A model generated the notes under the pieces. That model saw only the letters and a program-made list of their open reading frames with translations. It searched no databases and was not told the DNA's origin. DNA of 64,000 nt, taken from contig NZ_FPEI01000005.1 of the NCBI RefSeq assembly GCF_900117415.1, forward strand, positions 124,001 through 188,000. The letters are read 5' to 3'. Every line of letters starts with the position of its first letter. The stretch's first letter is position 1. Source of the stretch: Hyphomicrobium sp. CS1BSMeth3. Lineage in GTDB: Bacteria > Pseudomonadota > Alphaproteobacteria > Rhizobiales > Hyphomicrobiaceae. The position numbers and the translations under genes were made by a program. Below, one piece after another: positions 3,964 through 51,204 of this stretch.

Positions 3964-3977
3964 TTGATCTGGATTAA
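3964..3977. promoter_or_regulatory. FNR/FixK-type box
   Basis: TTGATCTGGATTAA followed by AGA. It matches TTGAT-N4-ATCAA except for one base. It lies between the DUF3141 gene (minus) and the ECF sigma gene (plus), 78 bases upstream of the latter. The same 17 bases recur at 34744. Confidence 0.6.
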
Positions 3978-34743: not shown

Positions 34744-34757
34744 TTGATCTGGATTAA
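34744..34757. promoter_or_regulatory. FNR/FixK-type box
   Basis: TTGATCTGGATTAA followed by AGA, the same 17-base string as at 3964. It lies 143 bases upstream of the P-type ATPase start. Confidence 0.6.
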
Positions 34758-34886
34758 AGATCCCAAGGTGCGTCGGGGCGAGGTTCACCACGAGGATGTT
34801 GTCGCTTCCCATCTATCATCAGTGCGGCAGAAACCCTGTGGCGCGCCGTGACGAAACTGGCTGGGCCACCTGACGGACGAAAAAGA

Positions 34887-36989
34887 ATGAGCTCACCGCA
34901 CTCCCATCACGGCCATCATGATCATCACCAGCATGGAGGTCGCGAGTCGCCCCATGACGGCCATCACGGCGCAGCCAAGATCGTAGCGGCGGCCGGGTCC
35001 AGCCATTCCGAGCACGCCGGTCACGACCACGGTGCCATGGTCGCTGACTTCCGTCGTCGGTTCTGGGTTACCCTGGTCCTGACGCCTCCGGTACTGTTGC
35101 TCTCGCCGATGATCCGGCACTGGCTCGGGCTCACGGAGCTCCTGTCCTTTCCGGGGGACGGCCTGGTCCTCTTCGTGCTCTCAACCGTCGCCTATCTGTA
35201 CGGCGGATGGCCATTCCTGACAGGCTTCTTCTCCGAGTTGCGCAAGGGGCAGCCCGGCATGATGACCCTGATCGCGCTGGCGATCTCGGCGGCCTACTTC
35301 TTCTCTGCGGCGGTCACGTTCGGCTTTCCAGGCGAAGCGTTCTACTGGGAACTGGTCACCCTCATTGCCATTATGCTGCTCGGCCACTGGGTCGAGATGC
35401 GCTCGGTGATGGGCGCGTCACGCGCGCTGGAAGAGCTCGTTCGTCTCTTGCCGGACAGCGCGACGCGGATCGACGCCAACGGTACGACACACGAGGTACC
35501 GATCTCCGATCTCAAGCCGGGCGACCGCGTCATTGTTCGCCCAGGCGCCAAGGTGCCGGTGGATGGCGAGATCGTCGAGGGGTCGTCAGGCTTCAACGAA
35601 GCAATGTTGACGGGCGAGTCACGCCCCGTCACCAAGGCGGTCGGCGCGACAGCTATCGGCGGGGCGATCAACGGCGCCAACGCCGTCACCATCAAAGTAA
35701 CGGCAACGGGCGATTCGACCTATCTCGCTCAGGTCATCGATCTCGTGAAGAAGGCGCAGGCGACACGCTCGCGCACCCAGGACATTGCCAACAGGGCGGC
35801 CGCTTGGCTGACCTACATTGCCCTCGTCGTTGGCTTCGGGACGCTTTTTGTCTGGTGGCTTTGGCTTGGCGCGCCGCTCGAATTCGCGCTTGAGCGCATG
35901 GTGACGGTGATGGTGGTGGCCTGCCCGCATGCCCTCGGCCTCGCTGTTCCGCTCGTGGTCGCCGTCAGCACATCGCTCAGCGCCAGCAACGGTCTTCTGA
36001 TCCGCGACCGCGCCGCTTTCGAGCGTGCGCGGAATCTACAAGCGGTGGTGTTGGACAAGACCGGCACATTGACGGAAGGCCGCTTCGGCGTCAGCGACAT
36101 CGTCCTGCTCTCAGGCGGCGACCAGAACACAGAACTGAGCTTCGCAGCCGCCGCAGAGAACCAGTCCGAGCACCCGATCGCACACGGGATCGTCGCCGAA
36201 GCGAAGCGCCGAAACCTGACCATTCCGAAAGCCAGCGAGGTGAGCAATATCACCGGCGAAGGTATCGTGGCGAAAGTTGACGGACAAGATATTCGCATCG
36301 TCAGTCCCGGCCATCTCGCCCGGCAGGGCAAGCCCATCACTCACGAGAAGCTGAAGCAGCTGGAGGGTCAGGGCAAGACGGTGGTGGCGCTTGTGCGCAG
36401 CGGCAAACCGCGTGCGCTATTCGCGCTCGCCGACATCGTTCGCCCGGAATCCAAAGATGCGATCGCCGAACTGACGCGGCTCGGCATCAGATCCGTCATG
36501 CTGACGGGCGATGCGAAAGGCGTCGCCGAGAGCGTGTCGAAGGAGCTAGGGATCGCAGAATATTTCGCCGAGGTACTTCCCGACCAGAAGTCCGACAAGA
36601 TCAAAGAGCTTCAGGCCCGTGGCCTTTCGGTGGCGATGGTTGGCGACGGCGTCAACGACGCACCGGCGCTCGTCCAGGCAGATCTGGGCGTCGCCATTGG
36701 CGCCGGTACCGATGTGGCTGTTGAGTCGGCTGACGTTGTTCTTGTTAAAAGCGATCCCCGCGACGTCGCCGCGATCCTCGGTCTGTCACGCGCTACCTAT
36801 CGTAAGATGGTGCAGAACCTCATCTGGGCTACGGCTTATAACACCGTAGCCATCCCGATGGCCGCCGGGATCACCTTCGGCACAGGCTTCATGATGACGC
36901 CGGCTGTCGCCGCAGTGTTCATGTCGGCGAGCACGATCATCGTTGCCATCAATGCGCAGTTCCTGCGGTTCTACCGGAGGCACGCCTGA
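34887..36989 (+). CDS. copB: CPH-type (P1B-3, CopB-like) metal P-type ATPase
   Basis: About 700 residues. The N-terminus is His-rich (HSHHGHHDHHQHGG and HSEHAGHDHG) with no CxxC domain. The catalytic motifs are the membrane CPHALG, DKTGTLTEG, the ATP-binding SEHPIAHGI and GDGVNDAPALVQAD. The CPH motif marks the P1B-3 group, which exports Cu(II) or Cu(I)/Ag(I). The ATG at 34887 has no strong ribosome site; a GTG at 34848 is an alternative. Unlike copA at 53159 it has a likely FNR-type box instead of a CueR site. Confidence 0.92.
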   Translation: MSSPHSHHGHHDHHQHGGRESPHDGHHGAAKIVAAAGSSHSEHAGHDHGAMVADFRRRFWVTLVLTPPVLLLSPMIRHWLGLTELLSFPGDGLVLFVLSTVAYLYGGWPFLTGFFSELRKGQPGMMTLIALAISAAYFFSAAVTFGFPGEAFYWELVTLIAIMLLGHWVEMRSVMGASRALEELVRLLPDSATRIDANGTTHEVPISDLKPGDRVIVRPGAKVPVDGEIVEGSSGFNEAMLTGESRPVTKAVGATAIGGAINGANAVTIKVTATGDSTYLAQVIDLVKKAQATRSRTQDIANRAAAWLTYIALVVGFGTLFVWWLWLGAPLEFALERMVTVMVVACPHALGLAVPLVVAVSTSLSASNGLLIRDRAAFERARNLQAVVLDKTGTLTEGRFGVSDIVLLSGGDQNTELSFAAAAENQSEHPIAHGIVAEAKRRNLTIPKASEVSNITGEGIVAKVDGQDIRIVSPGHLARQGKPITHEKLKQLEGQGKTVVALVRSGKPRALFALADIVRPESKDAIAELTRLGIRSVMLTGDAKGVAESVSKELGIAEYFAEVLPDQKSDKIKELQARGLSVAMVGDGVNDAPALVQADLGVAIGAGTDVAVESADVVLVKSDPRDVAAILGLSRATYRKMVQNLIWATAYNTVAIPMAAGITFGTGFMMTPAVAAVFMSASTIIVAINAQFLRFYRRHA

Positions 36990-37088: not shown

Positions 37089-37583
37089 ATGAAAGTGTAT
37101 TTCGCCTCCGACCATGCTGGGTTTGAAGCCAAGAACAAGCTTGTCGAATATGTCCGCGATCAACTCAAGTTTGCGGTTGAAGACTGCGGTGCCTTAGCAA
37201 ACGATCCGCAGGACGACTACCCGGCAATCATTGCCGTTGCGGCAAAAAAACTTTCGGACGACGTTGCGGAAGGAAAGGACAGTCGTGCAATCGTTGCCGG
37301 GGCTTCGGGGCAAGGCGAAGCCATCGTAGCGAACAGGTTCAAAGGCGTTCGCTGTGCACTCTACTATGGTGACCCCGGAATCGAGCAAGTGGACGCTTCC
37401 GGAAAGCATCTGGATATTCTCATGTCGACGCGCGAGCACAACAATGCGAACGCGCTCTCCCTGGGCCTTCGGTTTCTCACACTCAATCAAGCCAAAGAGG
37501 CCGTCACGCGCTGGCTCTCAGCACCGTTTCCAGGAGAGGCGCGCCATGCACGCAGGGTCACTCAGATAGATCAAATTTCGTAG
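37089..37583 (+). CDS. rpiB: RpiB-type ribose-5-phosphate isomerase (Glu-dependent class)
   Basis: 164 residues. FASDHAGFEAKNKLVEY and DCGALANDPQDDYP are RpiB substrate-site motifs. The catalytic segment reads VAGASGQGEAIVANRF in place of the E. coli CGTGIG: Cys is absent and the Glu fits the actinobacterial (Mycobacterium) RpiB base. REHNNANALSLG follows. It interconverts ribose-5-phosphate and ribulose-5-phosphate. This suits the pentose-phosphate steps that the phosphoketolase/AMP-phosphorylase operon at 45-51 kb would need. The start ATG at 37089 lies behind GGGAAGTGAG. Confidence 0.85.
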   Translation: MKVYFASDHAGFEAKNKLVEYVRDQLKFAVEDCGALANDPQDDYPAIIAVAAKKLSDDVAEGKDSRAIVAGASGQGEAIVANRFKGVRCALYYGDPGIEQVDASGKHLDILMSTREHNNANALSLGLRFLTLNQAKEAVTRWLSAPFPGEARHARRVTQIDQIS

Positions 37584-44737: not shown

Positions 44738-44751
44738 TTGATCTCGATTAA
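44738..44751. promoter_or_regulatory. FNR/FixK-type box (toward prs-like operon)
   Basis: TTGATCTCGATTAA followed by AG. It lies 114 bases upstream of the PRPP-synthetase-like gene, in the same gap as the box at 44684; the two centres are 54 bases apart. Confidence 0.6.
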
Positions 44752-44865: not shown

Positions 44866-45897
44866 ATGGCGCGCGTCTCTCCTCCCAACGATCGTCCTAA
44901 GCCAATCATTCTGGCGCTGCCGGGGAACGACGCTTTTGCACGAAGTCTTGCAGACGCTGGCGCAGGGGAACTGGGCGTCATCGAAACCCGCTATTTCCCG
45001 GACGGCGAAACTTATGTGCGCCTTGCCTCCGATGTGGCTGGCAAGACGGTTCTTCTGATTTCTACGCTTGCTCGCCCTGATGAGGGCTTTCTGCGCCTTG
45101 TCTTCGTCGCCGATGCGGCGCGCTCTCTCGGCGCCTCCGAGGTCACGCTGATTGCTCCCTATCTTGCCTATATGCGGCAGGATCGCCGCTTCCAGCCAGG
45201 CGAGGCCATCACCTCACGAACCTTCGCACGCCTCGTATCATCGAGTTTCGATCGCCTTGTCACAGTCGATCCGCACTTGCACCGCTATCCGGCGCTGTCT
45301 GCGCTATACGACATCCCGGCGCACACGGTGCATGCTGCGCCGCTCCTGGCGAACTGGATCGCCGCGTCGATTGCAAAGCCGCTGGTCATCGGACCCGACG
45401 AGGAAAGCGAGCAGTGGGTGTCGGCGATCGCGGCGCGGATCGGCGCGCCGCACGCGGTACTGCGCAAAGTTCGCCATGGCGATCGCGATGTAGACATCGA
45501 GCTGCCGGACCTTTCGCAATGGAATGGCCTCCAGCCTGTTCTGGTCGACGATATTGCCTCGTCTGGCAACACGCTCATCGAAGCGGCGCGTAAGCTGCCG
45601 TTGCAGGGCTTTTCCCGCCCGGACGTCGCCGTTGTGCATGGCATTTTCGCCGGCGACTCCTTTGAGCGGCTGACGCCTCTCTGCGGCAGGATCGTCTCGA
45701 CCGATGCCGTCATTCACCCGAGCAACGTGATCGGGCTTGCCCCACTGATCGCCGATGCGATAGCAGCCGCGGACACTTCCGACTTAGAACTGATCCGCCA
45801 TCGGCGCCCACCCGAACCGCTCGACGATGTCGAGCGCGCCGGTATCGACTCCTTTCCCGCGAGCGATCCACCGCCCTGGACCGGCGGGGTCGCATAG
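44866..45897 (+). CDS. prs: Ribose-phosphate pyrophosphokinase-like protein
   Basis: 343 residues. ILALPGNDAFARSLADA and the ATP-loop region YFPDGETYVRLASDVAGKT, then LIAPYLAYMRQDRRFQPGEA and VDPHLHRYPALSALYDI match the PRPP synthetase fold, with VDPH for the usual VDLH. The PRPP loop is LVDDIASSGNTLIEAARKL, SSGNT replacing DTGGT. It converts ribose-5-phosphate and ATP to PRPP plus AMP, or the reverse. It is a divergent, probably second, prs. The C-terminal 30 residues (DPPPWTGGVA end) are extra. The ATG at 44866 is chosen over one 42 bases upstream. It leads the operon with the phosphoketolase, RNA hydrolase and AMP phosphorylase. Confidence 0.85.
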   Translation: MARVSPPNDRPKPIILALPGNDAFARSLADAGAGELGVIETRYFPDGETYVRLASDVAGKTVLLISTLARPDEGFLRLVFVADAARSLGASEVTLIAPYLAYMRQDRRFQPGEAITSRTFARLVSSSFDRLVTVDPHLHRYPALSALYDIPAHTVHAAPLLANWIAASIAKPLVIGPDEESEQWVSAIAARIGAPHAVLRKVRHGDRDVDIELPDLSQWNGLQPVLVDDIASSGNTLIEAARKLPLQGFSRPDVAVVHGIFAGDSFERLTPLCGRIVSTDAVIHPSNVIGLAPLIADAIAAADTSDLELIRHRRPPEPLDDVERAGIDSFPASDPPPWTGGVA

Positions 45898-45944
45898 CGC
45901 AGCTGATACAAAGAGCTCCACGAATCCAAGATAGGCAGCAGCGC

Positions 45945-48314
45945 ATGGCCGCTACGACGTCTTCAGCCTTCGAACACTGGCGGGCCGGCTACGGGCCGAT
46001 CAATCATGGCGATGAGACGATCGAGCGTATCCGGGCCTTCGCGCAGTCGGCCAGACTGGATCAGGATGAGCTTTACCGCCGTCTCGCCGCCGCTGACCGG
46101 CTGACCTGCGCGGGAATGTGGACGGTCGTTCACATGACCTATGCGAAGCGTGTCGACCTTTCTGGAGCATCGCTGCCTGTCGAAGCCTTTAAGGCTATCC
46201 CGGAAGGGCATACCGGCGGATCATTGAACATGGTGCCCGCCTTTGTCGGGTATCTCACTGCCAACGCGATCTCAGCCACAACCCGCGCCTGGTTGATGGG
46301 ACAAGGCCATTGCGTCGCCGCTATTGAAGCGATCAACGCGCTCACCGGCGATGTCTCCGATGCGCAGAAAGGGCGATACGACCGCAGCGAGAAGGGGCTG
46401 TCCCAGCTTGCCGCCGATTTCTACTCCTACGCGATCGGCGCCGACGGCCGGCCGGCGGTCCCGCTCGGCAGCCATGCCGGACCGAATACCGCTGGTGCGA
46501 TCTCGGAGGGCGGCTATCTCGGCTTTGCCGAAGTTCAATACGTTCATGCGCCGTTGCCGGGGGAGAGCCTGATCGCATTTCTGAGTGATGGGGCGTTTGA
46601 GGAACAGCGTGGTTCGGACTGGACGGCGCGCTGGTGGCGGGCAGAAGATAGTGGCCTCGTTGTTCCGATCATGATTCTCAACGGCCGACGCATCGAGGAG
46701 CGCGCTCAGATCGCGCAGCAGGGCGGTGCGGACTGGCTGGCCGATCATCTCCGGCTTAACGGCTTTGATCCCTTCATCATCGACGGCCGCGACCCTGCCG
46801 CCTTCGTTTGGGCTATCCTGACGGCGGAAGAGCGCCTGGGCCGTTTTGCCGACGATCCAGCCCGCCGCTATCCCGCACCGATGCCCTATGCCATCGCCGA
46901 AACCTTAAAAGGCTTCGGCTTCCCTGGCGCGGGCACCAATGCGGCGCACAACCTGCCGCTCATCACTAACCCCTCCCGCGACGAAGCTGCGCGCAATGCG
47001 TTCAACGATGCGGCCCGCGCTCTGTTCGTCGCACCGGTCGACATCGAGGCAGCCGTGGCCGCCATCGCCATTCATCAGGAGCAGAATCGGCCGGCGGAAA
47101 GCCGACACCCACTCGCTTCGCGCCGTCCGTTGGCACCAAACCTGCCGAAGCCGCAATGGACCGGGATAAACACGCCACCGGATTGTGCCATGCATGCCCT
47201 CGACCGTTGGTTCGTGCGCCTTGTCGACGCCAATCCGGCGTTGCGGGTCCGGGTCGGCAATCCGGACGAACTCAGCTCCAACCATATGGGCGCGACCCTC
47301 GAGCGGCTATGCCATCGCGTCAACGCGCCGGAGACAGGTGTGGCCGAGGCTCGCGATGGCAGCGTGATAACGGCGCTGAACGAGGAGGCGGTCGCCGCAG
47401 CGGCTCTTGCCAACAAGGGCGGGATCAACCTCATCGTCAGTTACGAGGCCTTCGCGATGAAGATGCTCGGCGGCCTGCGTCAGGAGATTGTGTTCGCCCG
47501 CCGGCAACGCGAGGATGGAAAGGAGCCGGGCTGGATCTCGGTGCCGCTGGTCGTCACCTCGCACACCTGGGAGAATTCGAAGAACGAGCAGTCGCACCAG
47601 GATCCTACTGTCGGCGAGGCGCTCCTGGGCGAGATGTCCGACACGGCGCGCGTCCTGTTTCCGGTCGACGCCAACAGCGCCGTCGCCACAATGGCTTCGG
47701 TGTTCGAGGGACGTGGGCAAGTCGCCTGCGTGATCGTCTCGAAGCGCGACATGCCGCATCGCTTCGATGGCGACGCCGCCGTCCGTTTCGTCACCGACGG
47801 CGCCGCTCACATAGACGGCCAGGTAGACGACGCGGAGCTGCAGATCGTCGCGATCGGTGCCTATCAACTCGAGGAGGCGCTCAAGGCCGCCCGTCGTCTC
47901 AAGAAGCGCGGACGGCACGTGCTGGTGACCGCGCTGACCGAGCCCGGGCGTTTCCGCGTTCCGCGTGACCCGATCGAGGCGCGCTTCGTGGTGGCAGACG
48001 ACACGCTCGCGGGTCTGTTCCCACCCAATGTTCCGCGCTTGATCGTTTCGCACACGCGTCCTGAGCCGATGCTCGGTCTGCTGCGACGGCTCGACGGCGG
48101 GCCGAAGCAAACTGCAGCGCGCGGCTACATCAGCCGGGGCGGGACGCTCGACGTCGCCGGCATGCTGTTCGCCAACCGTTGCTCGTGGGCGCATCTGATT
48201 GACGCAGCCGTCCCATTGGCCGGCTGGTCGCGCGAAGATCTGCTCACGGCCGCCGAATGCAATGCCATCGATGGGAAAGGCACTCCCGCCGATCTTTCGA
48301 CTCCCACGCATTGA
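45945..48314 (+). CDS. Divergent phosphoketolase family protein (XFP-like)
   Basis: 789 residues, a normal length for phosphoketolases. The N-terminal TPP half contains IPEGHTGGSLNMVPAFVGYL, LMGQGHCVAAIEAINALTG and FLSDGAFEEQRGSDWTARWW. In ordinary enzymes these positions read GPGHGGPA and GDGEAETGP, so the TPP-binding segments are clearly different. The C-terminal half keeps the layout (HTWENSKNEQSHQDPTVGEA, FPVDANSAVATMASVF). Ordinary phosphoketolases cleave xylulose- or fructose-phosphate with Pi to acetyl phosphate; with the changed residues the substrate and even the reaction are open. It is 48 bases after the prs-like gene. Confidence 0.85.
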   Translation: MAATTSSAFEHWRAGYGPINHGDETIERIRAFAQSARLDQDELYRRLAAADRLTCAGMWTVVHMTYAKRVDLSGASLPVEAFKAIPEGHTGGSLNMVPAFVGYLTANAISATTRAWLMGQGHCVAAIEAINALTGDVSDAQKGRYDRSEKGLSQLAADFYSYAIGADGRPAVPLGSHAGPNTAGAISEGGYLGFAEVQYVHAPLPGESLIAFLSDGAFEEQRGSDWTARWWRAEDSGLVVPIMILNGRRIEERAQIAQQGGADWLADHLRLNGFDPFIIDGRDPAAFVWAILTAEERLGRFADDPARRYPAPMPYAIAETLKGFGFPGAGTNAAHNLPLITNPSRDEAARNAFNDAARALFVAPVDIEAAVAAIAIHQEQNRPAESRHPLASRRPLAPNLPKPQWTGINTPPDCAMHALDRWFVRLVDANPALRVRVGNPDELSSNHMGATLERLCHRVNAPETGVAEARDGSVITALNEEAVAAAALANKGGINLIVSYEAFAMKMLGGLRQEIVFARRQREDGKEPGWISVPLVVTSHTWENSKNEQSHQDPTVGEALLGEMSDTARVLFPVDANSAVATMASVFEGRGQVACVIVSKRDMPHRFDGDAAVRFVTDGAAHIDGQVDDAELQIVAIGAYQLEEALKAARRLKKRGRHVLVTALTEPGRFRVPRDPIEARFVVADDTLAGLFPPNVPRLIVSHTRPEPMLGLLRRLDGGPKQTAARGYISRGGTLDVAGMLFANRCSWAHLIDAAVPLAGWSREDLLTAAECNAIDGKGTPADLSTPTH

Positions 48315-48322
48315 AGGACGAC

Positions 48323-49681
48323 ATGCTCACACTCACCTCCCTCGGCGGCGCTGGTACCGTCACCGGCTCGAAGCATCTCCTCTCCAACGGGGACAAGCGC
48401 ATCCTGATCGACTGCGGTTTGTTTCAGGGCCTTAAGAACCTGCGCGAGTTGAACTGGGCGCCATTGCCGATCGCGCCGTCGCGCATCGATGCTGTCATCC
48501 TGACGCACGCCCATCTCGACCATTCGGGATATCTTCCAAAGCTCGTGCGTGACGGCTTCCGGGGAAGGATCTACGCGACAGAAGCGACACGCGATGTGGC
48601 CGAGCTCATTCTCAAGGACAGCGGGCATCTTCAGGAAAAGGATGCCGAATACGCGAACCGGAAGGGATTTTCGAAGCATAAGCCGGCGCTTGCACTTTAC
48701 GGCATCCGCGATGCCGAGCGCAGCCTTGAGTTCTTCTCGCCTCTTCCCTTCGACAAGCCGGTTCAGCTGCCGTTCGGCGCGACGCTGACGTTCCGTCATG
48801 CCGGTCACATCCTGGGCGCCGCGACTGCCGAGATCGAATGGGGTGGACGCCGCGTCGCTTTCTCGGGCGATCTCGGCCGCTATGACGATCCGGTTCTCCC
48901 CGATCCAGCTCCGGTTCCGGAGGCCGACTATGTCGTTATCGAGTCGACCTATGGCAACCGCCTGCACGACCCGGCGGATCCAACCGAAGCGCTTGGCGGC
49001 ATCATCGAGCGCACGGTCGCGCGCGGGGGGACGGTGGTCATCCCCGCCTTCGCCGTCGGTCGCGCCCAGTCTCTGCTCTACCATCTCTGGAAGCTCAAGA
49101 CGGCAGGACGGTTGGCTCAGGTGCCAGTCTATCTTGACAGCCCGATGGCGATCGATGCCACCGACCTCTTGCACGCCCACCGCCGCGACCACCGGCTGAC
49201 ACCGGAGCAATGCAAGGAGGTTTGCGCGATCGCGACCTACACCCGCGACGTTGAAGGTTCGAAGACCATTACGGCTAGCGTCTACCCGAAGGTGGTGATC
49301 TCGGCGAGCGGCATGGCGACCGGCGGTCGAGTGCTTCATCACCTGAAGACTTTCGCCCCCGATTTGCGCAACACGATCCTGTTCTCCGGGTTTCAGGCGG
49401 CAGGCACGCGCGGCCGTGCCATGCTGCAGGGCGCACAAGAGACCAAGATTCATGGTTTTTGGATTCCGGTCCGGGCCGCCGTCGAGGAGCTGTCGATGCT
49501 GTCGGCCCATGCTGACGCCAATGAGCTGGTGCGATGGCTATCGGGTTTCCGGCGCCCGCCTTCCCGCGTGTTCATTGTGCACGGCGAGGATGAAGCTTCC
49601 GAAGCCTTACGCGTTCGCATTCACCGCGAGCTCGGATGGGACGCGGTGGTTTCGCGTCAAGAACAGGCATTTGAGCTATGA
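48323..49681 (+). CDS. Beta-CASP metallo-beta-lactamase RNA hydrolase
   Basis: 452 residues. The MBL motifs are LTHAHLDHSGYLPKLVRDG (HxHxDH), RHAGHILGAATAEIEW, FSGDLGRYDDP and, in the beta-CASP part, ESTYGNRLHD, FAVGRAQSLLYHLW, SAHADANELVRWLSGFRR and FIVHGEDEASEALRV. These are the CPSF-73/RNase-J-like proteins that cut RNA; bacterial members with this layout are often called MBL-fold RNA hydrolases. The substrate is not readable. It starts eight bases after the phosphoketolase stop and overlaps the next gene by four bases (ATGA). Confidence 0.92.
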   Translation: MLTLTSLGGAGTVTGSKHLLSNGDKRILIDCGLFQGLKNLRELNWAPLPIAPSRIDAVILTHAHLDHSGYLPKLVRDGFRGRIYATEATRDVAELILKDSGHLQEKDAEYANRKGFSKHKPALALYGIRDAERSLEFFSPLPFDKPVQLPFGATLTFRHAGHILGAATAEIEWGGRRVAFSGDLGRYDDPVLPDPAPVPEADYVVIESTYGNRLHDPADPTEALGGIIERTVARGGTVVIPAFAVGRAQSLLYHLWKLKTAGRLAQVPVYLDSPMAIDATDLLHAHRRDHRLTPEQCKEVCAIATYTRDVEGSKTITASVYPKVVISASGMATGGRVLHHLKTFAPDLRNTILFSGFQAAGTRGRAMLQGAQETKIHGFWIPVRAAVEELSMLSAHADANELVRWLSGFRRPPSRVFIVHGEDEASEALRVRIHRELGWDAVVSRQEQAFEL

Positions 49682-51204
49682 CGCAAGACGACCTCACCAT
49701 CCCGGCCCAGCCGACGCTTCGGGTCCGACGCATTCGGCTGCACACGCAGCATCAGGCGGTGGTCGTGATGCGCACCGACTGCCACGTCTGTCGTTCGGAG
49801 GGCCTGTCTGCCCGCTCGCAAGTGCTCGTCTCGAACGGTAGCGTGGACGTTCAGGCCACCTTGTTTCAGGTTGATGGCGATGGGCTGATCGCTATCGACG
49901 AGGTCGGCCTCTCCGAGACCGCCTGGCAACGGCTCGGCCTGAGCGACGGCGACGCGATCCGGGTGAGCCATGCCCCCGCAATCGATTCTCTCGCCAGTGT
50001 GCGCCAGCGCATCTACGGCAATCGCCTTGACGCTCGGGCCTTTGGCGAAATCCTGCGCGACGTGGTCGCCGGGCGCTATACCGAAGTCCATCTTGCCGCG
50101 TTCCTCACCGCGAGTGCCGCGCTGCCCCTTGATGAGAATGAAACCGCCGACCTGACTGGCGCCATGATCGATGTCGGCGAGAGGATGCGGTGGAACGCGC
50201 CGACTGTCATCGACAAGCACTGTGTAGGTGGCCTCCCTGGTAACAGGACCACGCCGATCGTCGTCGCGATTGTGGCCGCGAACGGGCTGGTAATGCCCAA
50301 GACTTCCTCGCGCGCCATAACCTCGCCGGCCGGCACCGCCGATACCATGGAAACGTTGGCACCAGTCGAGCTGGACACCGCGACTCTGAGGCGTGTCGTA
50401 GAGAACGAGGGAGGCTGCATTGCCTGGGGTGGTGCCGTTCATTTGAGTCCCGCTGACGACATCTTCGTGCGGATCGAGCGCGAACTCGATGTCGACACCG
50501 AGGGCCAGCTCGTCGCTTCGGTCCTGTCCAAGAAGATCGCGGCGGGGGCGACCCATGTCGTCATCGACATCCCGGTCGGTCCGACGGCCAAGGTGCGCGG
50601 CGAGGACGCCGCCAATCGTCTTGCCTCCCGCCTCGCCGCGGTGGCCACGCGCTTCGGCCTCGCGACGACCTGCGTCCAGACCGACGGCGCTCAACCTGTG
50701 GGTCGCGGCATCGGACCGGCGTTGGAGGCGTGGGACGTGCTCGCCGTCCTGAAGAACGTGTCGGATGCACCCGACGATTTGCGTCGACGAGCGGCGGCGC
50801 TGGCCGGAGCCGCGCTGGAGATCGGTGGCAAGGCCGTGACCGGAGAAGGCGTCAACCTGGCGCTCGAAACGCTTTCGAACGGTCGGGCGTGGTCAAAGTT
50901 CGAGGCGATCTGCAAAGCGCAAGGGGGCCTCCGCACGCCGCCCAAGGCCTCATATGTCCATCCTCTGACCGCGGAGCGCGCCGGGCGTATCGTGCATATC
51001 AACAACCGCAAGCTCTCCCGGCTCGCCAAGCTTGCCGGAGCTCCGGAAGCAAAGGCGGCAGGCATTCAAATGGCCGTTCGACTTGGCGACGAAATCGATC
51101 GCGGCCAGCCGCTACTTCATGTGCACGCCGAGACGACGGGCGAACTCGCCTACGCGCTCGACTATGCTGCCCGGGCCGGGACTATTATCGAGGTCGAGGC
51201 TTGA
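49678..51204 (+). CDS. AMP-phosphorylase-type (thymidine phosphorylase family) enzyme
   Basis: 508 residues, with an extra N-terminal domain of about 85 residues. The middle reads DKHCVGGLPGNRTTPIVVAI and SSRAITSPAGTADTMETLA, the signature of archaeal AMP phosphorylase rather than of E. coli DeoA (which has DKHSTGGVGD and SGRGLGHTGG). AMP phosphorylases turn AMP and Pi into adenine and ribose-1,5-bisphosphate. The C-terminal pyrimidine-phosphorylase domain includes KAAGIQMAVRLGDEIDRGQP and LLHVHAETTGELAYALDYA. It ends the operon with prs-like, phosphoketolase and RNA hydrolase. NMP specificity is inferred from the motif. Confidence 0.9.
   Translation: MTQDDLTIPAQPTLRVRRIRLHTQHQAVVVMRTDCHVCRSEGLSARSQVLVSNGSVDVQATLFQVDGDGLIAIDEVGLSETAWQRLGLSDGDAIRVSHAPAIDSLASVRQRIYGNRLDARAFGEILRDVVAGRYTEVHLAAFLTASAALPLDENETADLTGAMIDVGERMRWNAPTVIDKHCVGGLPGNRTTPIVVAIVAANGLVMPKTSSRAITSPAGTADTMETLAPVELDTATLRRVVENEGGCIAWGGAVHLSPADDIFVRIERELDVDTEGQLVASVLSKKIAAGATHVVIDIPVGPTAKVRGEDAANRLASRLAAVATRFGLATTCVQTDGAQPVGRGIGPALEAWDVLAVLKNVSDAPDDLRRRAAALAGAALEIGGKAVTGEGVNLALETLSNGRAWSKFEAICKAQGGLRTPPKASYVHPLTAERAGRIVHINNRKLSRLAKLAGAPEAKAAGIQMAVRLGDEIDRGQPLLHVHAETTGELAYALDYAARAGTIIEVEA

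Follow-up and report, generated by a model that had tools for sequence, protein, structure and literature searches.

A phosphorylase/PRS-like gene pair at the core of a conserved proteobacterial operon with a possible role in low-oxygen nucleotide salvage

A 64,000-nucleotide stretch of the Hyphomicrobium sp. CS1BSMeth3 genome (contig NZ_FPEI01000005.1, positions 124,001 to 188,000; hereafter the window) carries, at its positions 44866-51204, four genes encoding a relative of phosphoribosyl pyrophosphate (PRPP) synthetase (the PRS-like protein), a divergent thiamine diphosphate (ThDP) phosphoketolase-like protein, a beta-CASP metallo-RNase and a nucleoside-5'-monophosphate (NMP) phosphorylase-like protein. 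We find that this four-gene operon is real and conserved, and that its core is the pair formed by the phosphorylase and the PRS-like protein, to which the RNase and the phosphoketolase are additions. We see an even chance that the pair underlies a low-oxygen nucleotide-salvage operon, in which the phosphorylase would release ribose-1,5-bisphosphate (R15P) from nucleotides and the PRS-like protein would consume it. The components of the operon, by window position, are as follows.

44738-44751, + strand: FNR/FixK-type box TTGATCTCGATTAA, 128 bases before the PRS-like gene
44866-45897, + strand: PRS-like gene (PRK07199 family), first of four
45945-48314, + strand: divergent ThDP phosphoketolase-like gene, second of four
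48323-49681, + strand: beta-CASP metallo-RNase gene (TTHA0252-like), with its ATG at 48323 and the longest open reading frame (ORF) from 48257
49678-51204, + strand: NMP (AMP) phosphorylase-like gene, including the N-terminal domain known from the archaeal enzyme

Gene content and conservation of the operon

All four ORFs lie on the forward strand where a first-pass annotation of the window had placed them. The spacing it gave is correct for the 8 bases before the RNase (start at 48323) and for the 4-base overlap that follows, while the first gap measures 47 bases and not 48. The association of the four families, which that annotation had seen in this DNA alone, recurs elsewhere. A public-genome scan with the phosphoketolase-like protein gave 80 loci, from Alpha-, Beta- and Gammaproteobacteria by title, and because these are the best 80 of 173 relatives the set leans towards close kin. 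Anywhere in these loci, some of which are cut by contig ends, the RNase was found in 71/80, the PRS-like gene in 62/80 and the phosphorylase in 59/80. Among the 58 loci whose flanks reach 6 kb or more on each side of the phosphoketolase (the full-flank loci), 53 had the RNase, 48 the PRS-like gene and 47 the phosphorylase within 6 kb; all three partners were present in 45/58 and none in 3/58. Gene order is variable, with the arrangement phosphoketolase-RNase-phosphorylase-PRS in L046, L054, L062 and L079.

The more distant companions proposed at the outset did not withstand the same comparison. RpiB does lie at 37089-37583, at the reported distance of about 7 kb upstream of the PRS-like gene, but with flanks of up to 10 kb it appeared in only 1/80 loci (L001, which is almost identical to the window), carbamate kinase in 5/80 and the thiolase linked to polyhydroxybutyrate (PHB) in 0/80. 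Within 6 kb, a distance too narrow for RpiB's own separation from the run in the window, the three were seen in 0, 4 and 0 of the 58 full-flank loci, and they were rejected as close partners. Because carbamate kinase and the thiolase lie more than 10 kb from the phosphoketolase in the window itself, the comparison covers close linkage only.

Given the bias of the phosphoketolase-scan set, we also started from the phosphorylase. A search of 299 sampled genomes of the host's phylum with PRK04350 gave 41 matches in 38 genomes over the cut-off, from which we drew 40 phosphorylase-centred loci outside the own genome, in 37 genomes. It is here that the core of the operon emerges, since the PRS-like gene was present in 37/40 of these loci, compared with 19/40 for the RNase and 5/40 for a phosphoketolase. 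When ORFs around the 40 loci were clustered, no family apart from the phosphorylase, the PRS-like protein and the RNase was present in more than 8/40. At the level of genomes, 36 of the 38 with a phosphorylase have a PRS-like gene (35 over the PRK07199 cut-off and one in G231, adjacent to the phosphorylase, just under it), as against 0/261 of the genomes without a phosphorylase, where the best match scored 167.6 bits and the cut-off is 322 (Fisher p ~2e-44, kinship ignored). In 34 of 37 pairs the two genes lie within 200 bases of each other; in the remaining three, further genes of the operon separate them by about 4 kb. This count omits a second, partial pair in G213.

The PRS-like family and the fate of ribose-1,5-bisphosphate

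The PRS-like protein scores 419 bits with NF005537/PRK07199 (cut-off 322). Both profile comparison and a structure model give it the fold of PRPP synthetase, with the archaeal enzymes nearest (best matches 1u9y and 3mbi); the structure models, with mean predicted local distance difference test (pLDDT) values of 81 and 80 for the two proteins modelled, serve to confirm folds only. Like these archaeal enzymes, which we take to be the class III PRPP synthetases, it keeps the catalytic Lys and Arg: 21 aligned PRS-like members all have K201 and R203 of the catalytic loop as well as the RQD and DD motifs. It differs from them in the loop with which PRPP synthetases bind pyrophosphate, and in its tie to the phosphorylase. 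In the window protein this loop reads GPDEESEQW (residues 176-184), and the pattern GPD-x-E-[SA]-x-x-W occurs in 62/62 PRS-like proteins from the phosphoketolase-scan loci and in 36/37 from the phosphorylase-centred loci, two sets that share some members. The sole departure among the 37, L150, reads GPDIESKPL and retains the Glu, so that the loop Gly is replaced by Glu in 99/99 members read (62 + 37) and the full new motif is present in 98. Housekeeping Prs proteins have PD-x-G-G in 30/30 and the solved structures compared have PD-x-G-[GA], a canonical form found in none of the 99 PRS-like members read. In a tree of 77 rows, with archaeal Prs left out, the PRS-like proteins form one clade apart from housekeeping Prs with 100/100 support, and a housekeeping Prs is encoded elsewhere in the own genome.

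The phosphorylase-like protein exceeds the cut-offs of both PRK04350 (668 bits, cut-off 434) and TIGR02645 (575 bits, cut-off 434.6). Its profile alignment with the Thermococcus kodakarensis enzyme 4ga5 runs over residues 8-488 at 498 bits, N-terminal domain included, and the two share the PKTSSRAITS and PADD segments, which are different in the pyrimidine phosphorylases 7m7k and 3h5q. According to the portion of PMC9700705 available to us, the T. kodakarensis NMP phosphorylase converts AMP, CMP and UMP to R15P, and PhnN phosphorylates R15P to give PRPP.

This activity of PhnN gives meaning to the exceptions. The only two of the 38 phosphorylase genomes that have no PRS-like gene, G254 and G206, each contain a single ORF that joins PhnN (159.6 and 168.7 bits, cut-off 156) to the phosphorylase (553 and 544 bits, cut-off 434). 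The same fusion is annotated as one phnN coding sequence of about 2.1 kb on plasmids of Variovorax sp. SRS16 and Pacificitalea manganoxidans, and a third matching record, from Paraburkholderia sp. 22B1P, has 80% cover. Since a fusion with an R15P consumer occurs just where the PRS-like gene is missing, we regard it as the strongest sign that the bacterial phosphorylase would make R15P and that the PRS-like protein would act at the same step as PhnN. R15P, which the first-pass annotation had given as the phosphorylase product, is on these fusions the likely one.

A side observation concerns the neighbours of the fusion gene. In 4/4 loci (L157:9662-12627, L158:7425-10080, L195:5138-8133, L196:5104-8070) nadC lies directly upstream, that in L158 being identified by reading the translated ORF, and transporter genes lie near all four (two annotated, two by reading of ORFs). 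This layout suggests a cycle in which NadC would turn quinolinate and PRPP into nicotinate mononucleotide, the phosphorylase would split it to nicotinate and R15P, and PhnN would return R15P to PRPP, with the decarboxylation of quinolinate to nicotinate as the possible net effect.

Other routes for R15P were considered. The R15P isomerase model TIGR00511 was matched over its cut-off in 0/38 phosphorylase genomes (best in the own genome 160 bits against 314.1), and 20 weaker matches of 139-187 bits among the 38 probably represent the related MtnA family. RuBisCO is present in 18/38, and PhnN at E <= 1e-20 in at least 12/38 (11 over the cut-off), a lower bound in which a few may be missed. Sixteen of the 38 have neither, and all 16 have a PRS-like gene in the phosphorylase locus. 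A RuBisCO route was rejected for the own genome, where no RuBisCO match was found, and PhnN was rejected as a general R15P sink, being detected in 12/38 genomes and, in the own genome, following an apparent PhnM.

The loss of the pyrophosphate loop, the pairing with the phosphorylase, the PhnN-fusion exceptions and the lack of any R15P isomerase match over the cut-off together lead us to infer that the PRS-like protein is an R15P-consuming step rather than a housekeeping PRPP synthetase; the family would not form PRPP by the ordinary route and would handle R15P instead. The first-pass annotation had assigned this place to an ordinary PRPP synthetase running backwards. That proposal needs to be changed, as such an enzyme does not use up R15P and so leaves a hole in the pathway, and as the loop is non-canonical and a separate housekeeping Prs exists. 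The PRS-like protein would be the best candidate to fill the hole. More specifically, we put forward as a tentative possibility that PRK07199, annotated as ribose-phosphate diphosphokinase, is a distinct family that would convert R15P and ADP to ribose-5-phosphate and ATP, or pass the 1-phosphate to AMP.

The phosphoketolase branch and low-oxygen control

The phosphoketolase-like protein matches XFP (138 bits) and XFP_N (46 bits) over their cut-offs. It has no match to XFP_C and falls far below the cut-off of all PRK05261 models (best 133 against 777), so the label "divergent" given in the first-pass annotation is apt. Identity to known XFP phosphoketolases is only about 20%, and their QDHNG segment reads NSKNE in the window protein. 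The fold (6gua, 8io8, 3ai7) is matched by profile and model along most of the protein, and the match takes in the C-terminal region for which XFP_C gives no hit. We take eleven residues of 3ai7 (H64, H97, H142, H320, E437, E479, Y501, Q546, N549, H553 and K605, positions counted from the alignment) to be the catalytic and cofactor residues of phosphoketolase. Ten of them are kept, as H89, H122, H177, H335, E442, E480, Y500, N547, H551 and K600, of which nine are the same in all of 17 sequences and one in nearly all, and Q546 is replaced by N544. Segments 189-198, 217-226 and 541-559 of the model have pLDDT under 50. RefSeq labels relatives of this protein on plasmids "xylulose 5-phosphate 3-epimerase", a name for which we know of no basis. 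The own genome was also searched for a canonical phosphoketolase, a candidate rejected for want of an XFP_C match.

An acetate kinase gene lies within 6 kb of the phosphoketolase in 22/58 full-flank loci, 21 of them on the same strand (observed counts, given without a chance rate). When it is upstream, the closest five gaps among the 27 listed are 32, 65, 97, 118 and 171 bases, and on an Alteromonas plasmid the two genes overlap by 1 base; in the own genome acetate kinase is on another contig. Among the phosphorylase-centred loci, L121 has a canonical phosphoketolase 3' of the phosphorylase and PRS-like genes, 729 bases from the latter. These neighbourhoods support the acetyl-phosphate end proposed in the first-pass annotation. 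The RNase is assigned to the beta-CASP ribonucleases by its metallo-beta-lactamase (MBL), Beta-Casp (114 bits) and RMMBL (67 bits) domains and by an HxHxDH motif.

Regulation by oxygen is suggested by the DNA upstream and by published data on similar genes. The FNR-type consensus is TTGAT-N4-ATCAA, and the box TTGATCTCGATTAA, which had been claimed in front of the operon, departs from it by one mismatch. At <=1 mismatch, 8 boxes of this type are present in the window (at 3964, 7213, 17533, 31801, 34744, 44738, 50129 and 60708), whereas the expectation is 1.13 and 0/100 shuffles reach 8; the window looks like a low-oxygen island beside apparent copper-handling genes. Eight loci with the same divergent upstream genes (L001-L004, L006-L008, L010) have a box at -122 to -132 with 1-2 mismatches. 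In 20 scanned loci (L009-L076), mostly Alphaproteobacteria by title, the gene immediately before the PRS-like gene encodes a heavy-metal P-type ATPase, with gaps of -14 to 74 bases between the two; copper specificity is a label by reading. For these 20 ATPase-first loci, 3 further cut loci being left aside, a box at <=2 mismatches was found in 15/20 upstream regions (random 18%), one of them inside the gene. The window has an ATPase gene of its own at 34848-36989, 8 kb upstream of the PRS-like gene and with an FNR-type box at 34744, and a relative of it lies within 6 kb in 27/58 full-flank loci.

Genes of the same descriptions have been studied in Bradyrhizobium diazoefficiens, where the parts of two reports available to us contain pertinent results. 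In PMC6515984 (Table 2), bll3115 (MBL fold), bll3116 (ribose-phosphate pyrophosphokinase), bll3117 (thymidine phosphorylase family) and bll2518 (phosphoketolase) are listed as increased in microoxia as both protein and transcript. In PMC9104804 (Table 2), the predicted operons bll3117-3116-3115 and bll2518-2517 (phosphoketolase-acetate kinase) have FixK2 boxes at -74 and -89, and deletion of fixK2 lowers transcripts 6.6-fold for bll3117, 30.6-fold for bll3115 and about 10-fold for bll2518 and bll2517, bll3116 having no row in the part available. These operons, induced in microoxia and dependent on fixK2, resemble the one described here in gene descriptions. They differ in their order, phosphorylase-PRS-RNase, and in that phosphoketolase and acetate kinase form an operon of their own. 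The Bradyrhizobium genes would be orthologous to those of the window by description and order, and the order phosphorylase-PRS-RNase recurs in four genomes of one genus from the same taxonomic order (L128, L129, L131, L132). The low-oxygen, FNR-type control suggested in the first-pass annotation is supported by both the boxes and the Bradyrhizobium genes, and control of the operon by an FNR/FixK-type regulator is, by this analogy, likely.

Proposed pathway, alternatives and known systems

In the pathway that we propose, an FNR/FixK-type regulator would switch the operon on when oxygen is short. The beta-CASP RNase would begin RNA decay, which other nucleases would complete to nucleoside monophosphates, and the phosphorylase-like enzyme would convert NMP and phosphate to the free base and R15P. 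The PRS-like protein would then use R15P, most likely by transferring its 1-phosphate to ADP or AMP to yield ribose-5-phosphate, or else by making PRPP as PhnN does. Ribose-5-phosphate would reach xylulose-5-phosphate through the usual isomerase and epimerase, the divergent phosphoketolase would split this to acetyl phosphate and glyceraldehyde-3-phosphate, and acetate kinase would form ATP. Each enzymatic step is predicted from sequence; the features behind the predictions are the gene content and its conservation, the pairing, the PhnN fusion, the loop change, the box and the acetate kinase neighbourhood. The route from RNA to acetyl phosphate outlined in the first-pass annotation thus survives in part, keeping its low-oxygen control and its phosphoketolase link but losing RpiB and carbamate kinase as conserved neighbours and needing a change at the reversed PRPP synthetase.

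Several observations weigh against this pathway. The phosphorylase falls below the cut-off of the AMP phosphorylase equivalog TIGR03327 AMP_phos (475 against 535 bits), and L147, a second phosphorylase copy in G250, has no adjacent PRS-like gene, the G250 pair being elsewhere. The RNase is present in only 19/40 phosphorylase-centred loci. A phosphoketolase is near only 5/40 phosphorylases (one of them canonical) and canonical XFP_C is found in only 11/38 phosphorylase genomes, so the acetyl-phosphate end is an add-on; acetate kinase was not found in 12/38. PhnN is encoded in the own genome too, in what appears to be a phn operon (the preceding gene being read as PhnM), and the PhnN count across genomes is, as noted, a minimum. 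At standard state, thermodynamics disfavours the phosphate transfer from R15P to ADP that would leave ribose-5-phosphate. Across all loci a box precedes the first operon gene in 25/79 at <=2 mismatches (control 11%) and in 4/79 at <=1 (1.3%), and in ATPase-first loci at <=1 mismatch in only 3/20 (control 3%). Finally, PMC6515984, in the part available to us, marks bll3115-3117 as non-FixK2 targets, despite the box and the dependence given in PMC9104804.

The evidence also has to be set against other functions for the pair. In one, the PRS-like protein would convert R15P and ATP to PRPP and ADP as PhnN does, recovering PRPP and free bases, and the phosphoketolase would be a separate low-oxygen function on the same transcript. 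That the kinase fused to the phosphorylase in both genomes without a PRS-like gene is a PRPP-forming one argues for this salvage of PRPP, as do the PRPP synthetase fold and the many pairs, the majority, without a neighbouring phosphoketolase. We judge it unlikely all the same, as the Gly of the pyrophosphate loop is Glu throughout the family, and as phosphoketolases of two subfamilies (the canonical one once) adjoin the pair, which fits ribose-5-phosphate better as the product. Alternatively, the protein might be an ordinary PRPP synthetase with a tolerated loop change, making PRPP or running in reverse, with the phosphorylase clearing its AMP. The NF005537 name, the fold and the invariant K201, R203, RQD and DD all agree with this, but the explanation appears distinctly improbable: the Gly-to-Glu change is found in 99/99 members, a housekeeping Prs is also present, the replacement by PhnN and the pairing in 36/38 against 0/261 genomes are left unexplained, and R15P would be without a known consumer in 16/38 genomes.

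The pair could also work in the biosynthetic direction, the PRS-like protein making R15P from ribose-5-phosphate and ATP and the phosphorylase joining bases to it in a PRPP-free salvage. The loop change would suit a mono- rather than a diphosphoryl product, and phosphorylases are reversible and often favour synthesis. We consider this very improbable, since the frequent addition of the RNase and of the phosphoketolase, the latter often near acetate kinase, and the low-oxygen induction of the Bradyrhizobium counterpart indicate breakdown.

The breakdown pathway that we favour is closest to the archaeal NMP shunt of T. kodakarensis, with which it shares the phosphorylase subfamily, aligned over nearly full length, and the expected product R15P. 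It differs in having neither an R15P isomerase over the cut-off in any of the 38 genomes nor RuBisCO in the own genome; a PRS-like partner is found instead, and the ribose carbon would go to phosphoketolase. The likely new element is the PRS-like family as an R15P-consuming enzyme. We met no described function for the four-gene set in the literature searched, which lacked most subscription papers, and the available parts of PMC6515984 and PMC9104804 propose none for bll3117-3116-3115 or bll2518-2517. If the proposal is correct, the proteins of this family, which carry PRPP synthetase annotations in many proteobacteria, are enzymes of another kind, and R15P, which has few known bacterial uses, gains a defined metabolic place. 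Bacteria short of oxygen would then be able to draw ATP from the ribose of RNA while bypassing the isomerase and RuBisCO of the archaeal route, and a function would be on offer for uncharacterised members of the regulon with which nitrogen-fixing rhizobia respond to oxygen limitation. Should PRK07199 pass the 1-phosphate of R15P to ADP or AMP, the reaction would count as a new step of substrate-level phosphorylation and would close the gap in a RuBisCO-free bacterial route from RNA to acetyl phosphate.

Two minor observations concern the setting of these genes in other genomes. The operon, its parts or the acetate kinase-phosphoketolase pair are carried on plasmids NZ_CP039905, NZ_LR723672, NZ_CP136699 and NZ_CP032914, of which one is typed conjugative and one mobilizable, and the operon may therefore move between species. 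In L193 (12262-12786) and L197 (13275-13799), the phosphorylase gene shares its last 4 bases with a gene that encodes a cytochrome b/b6 domain.

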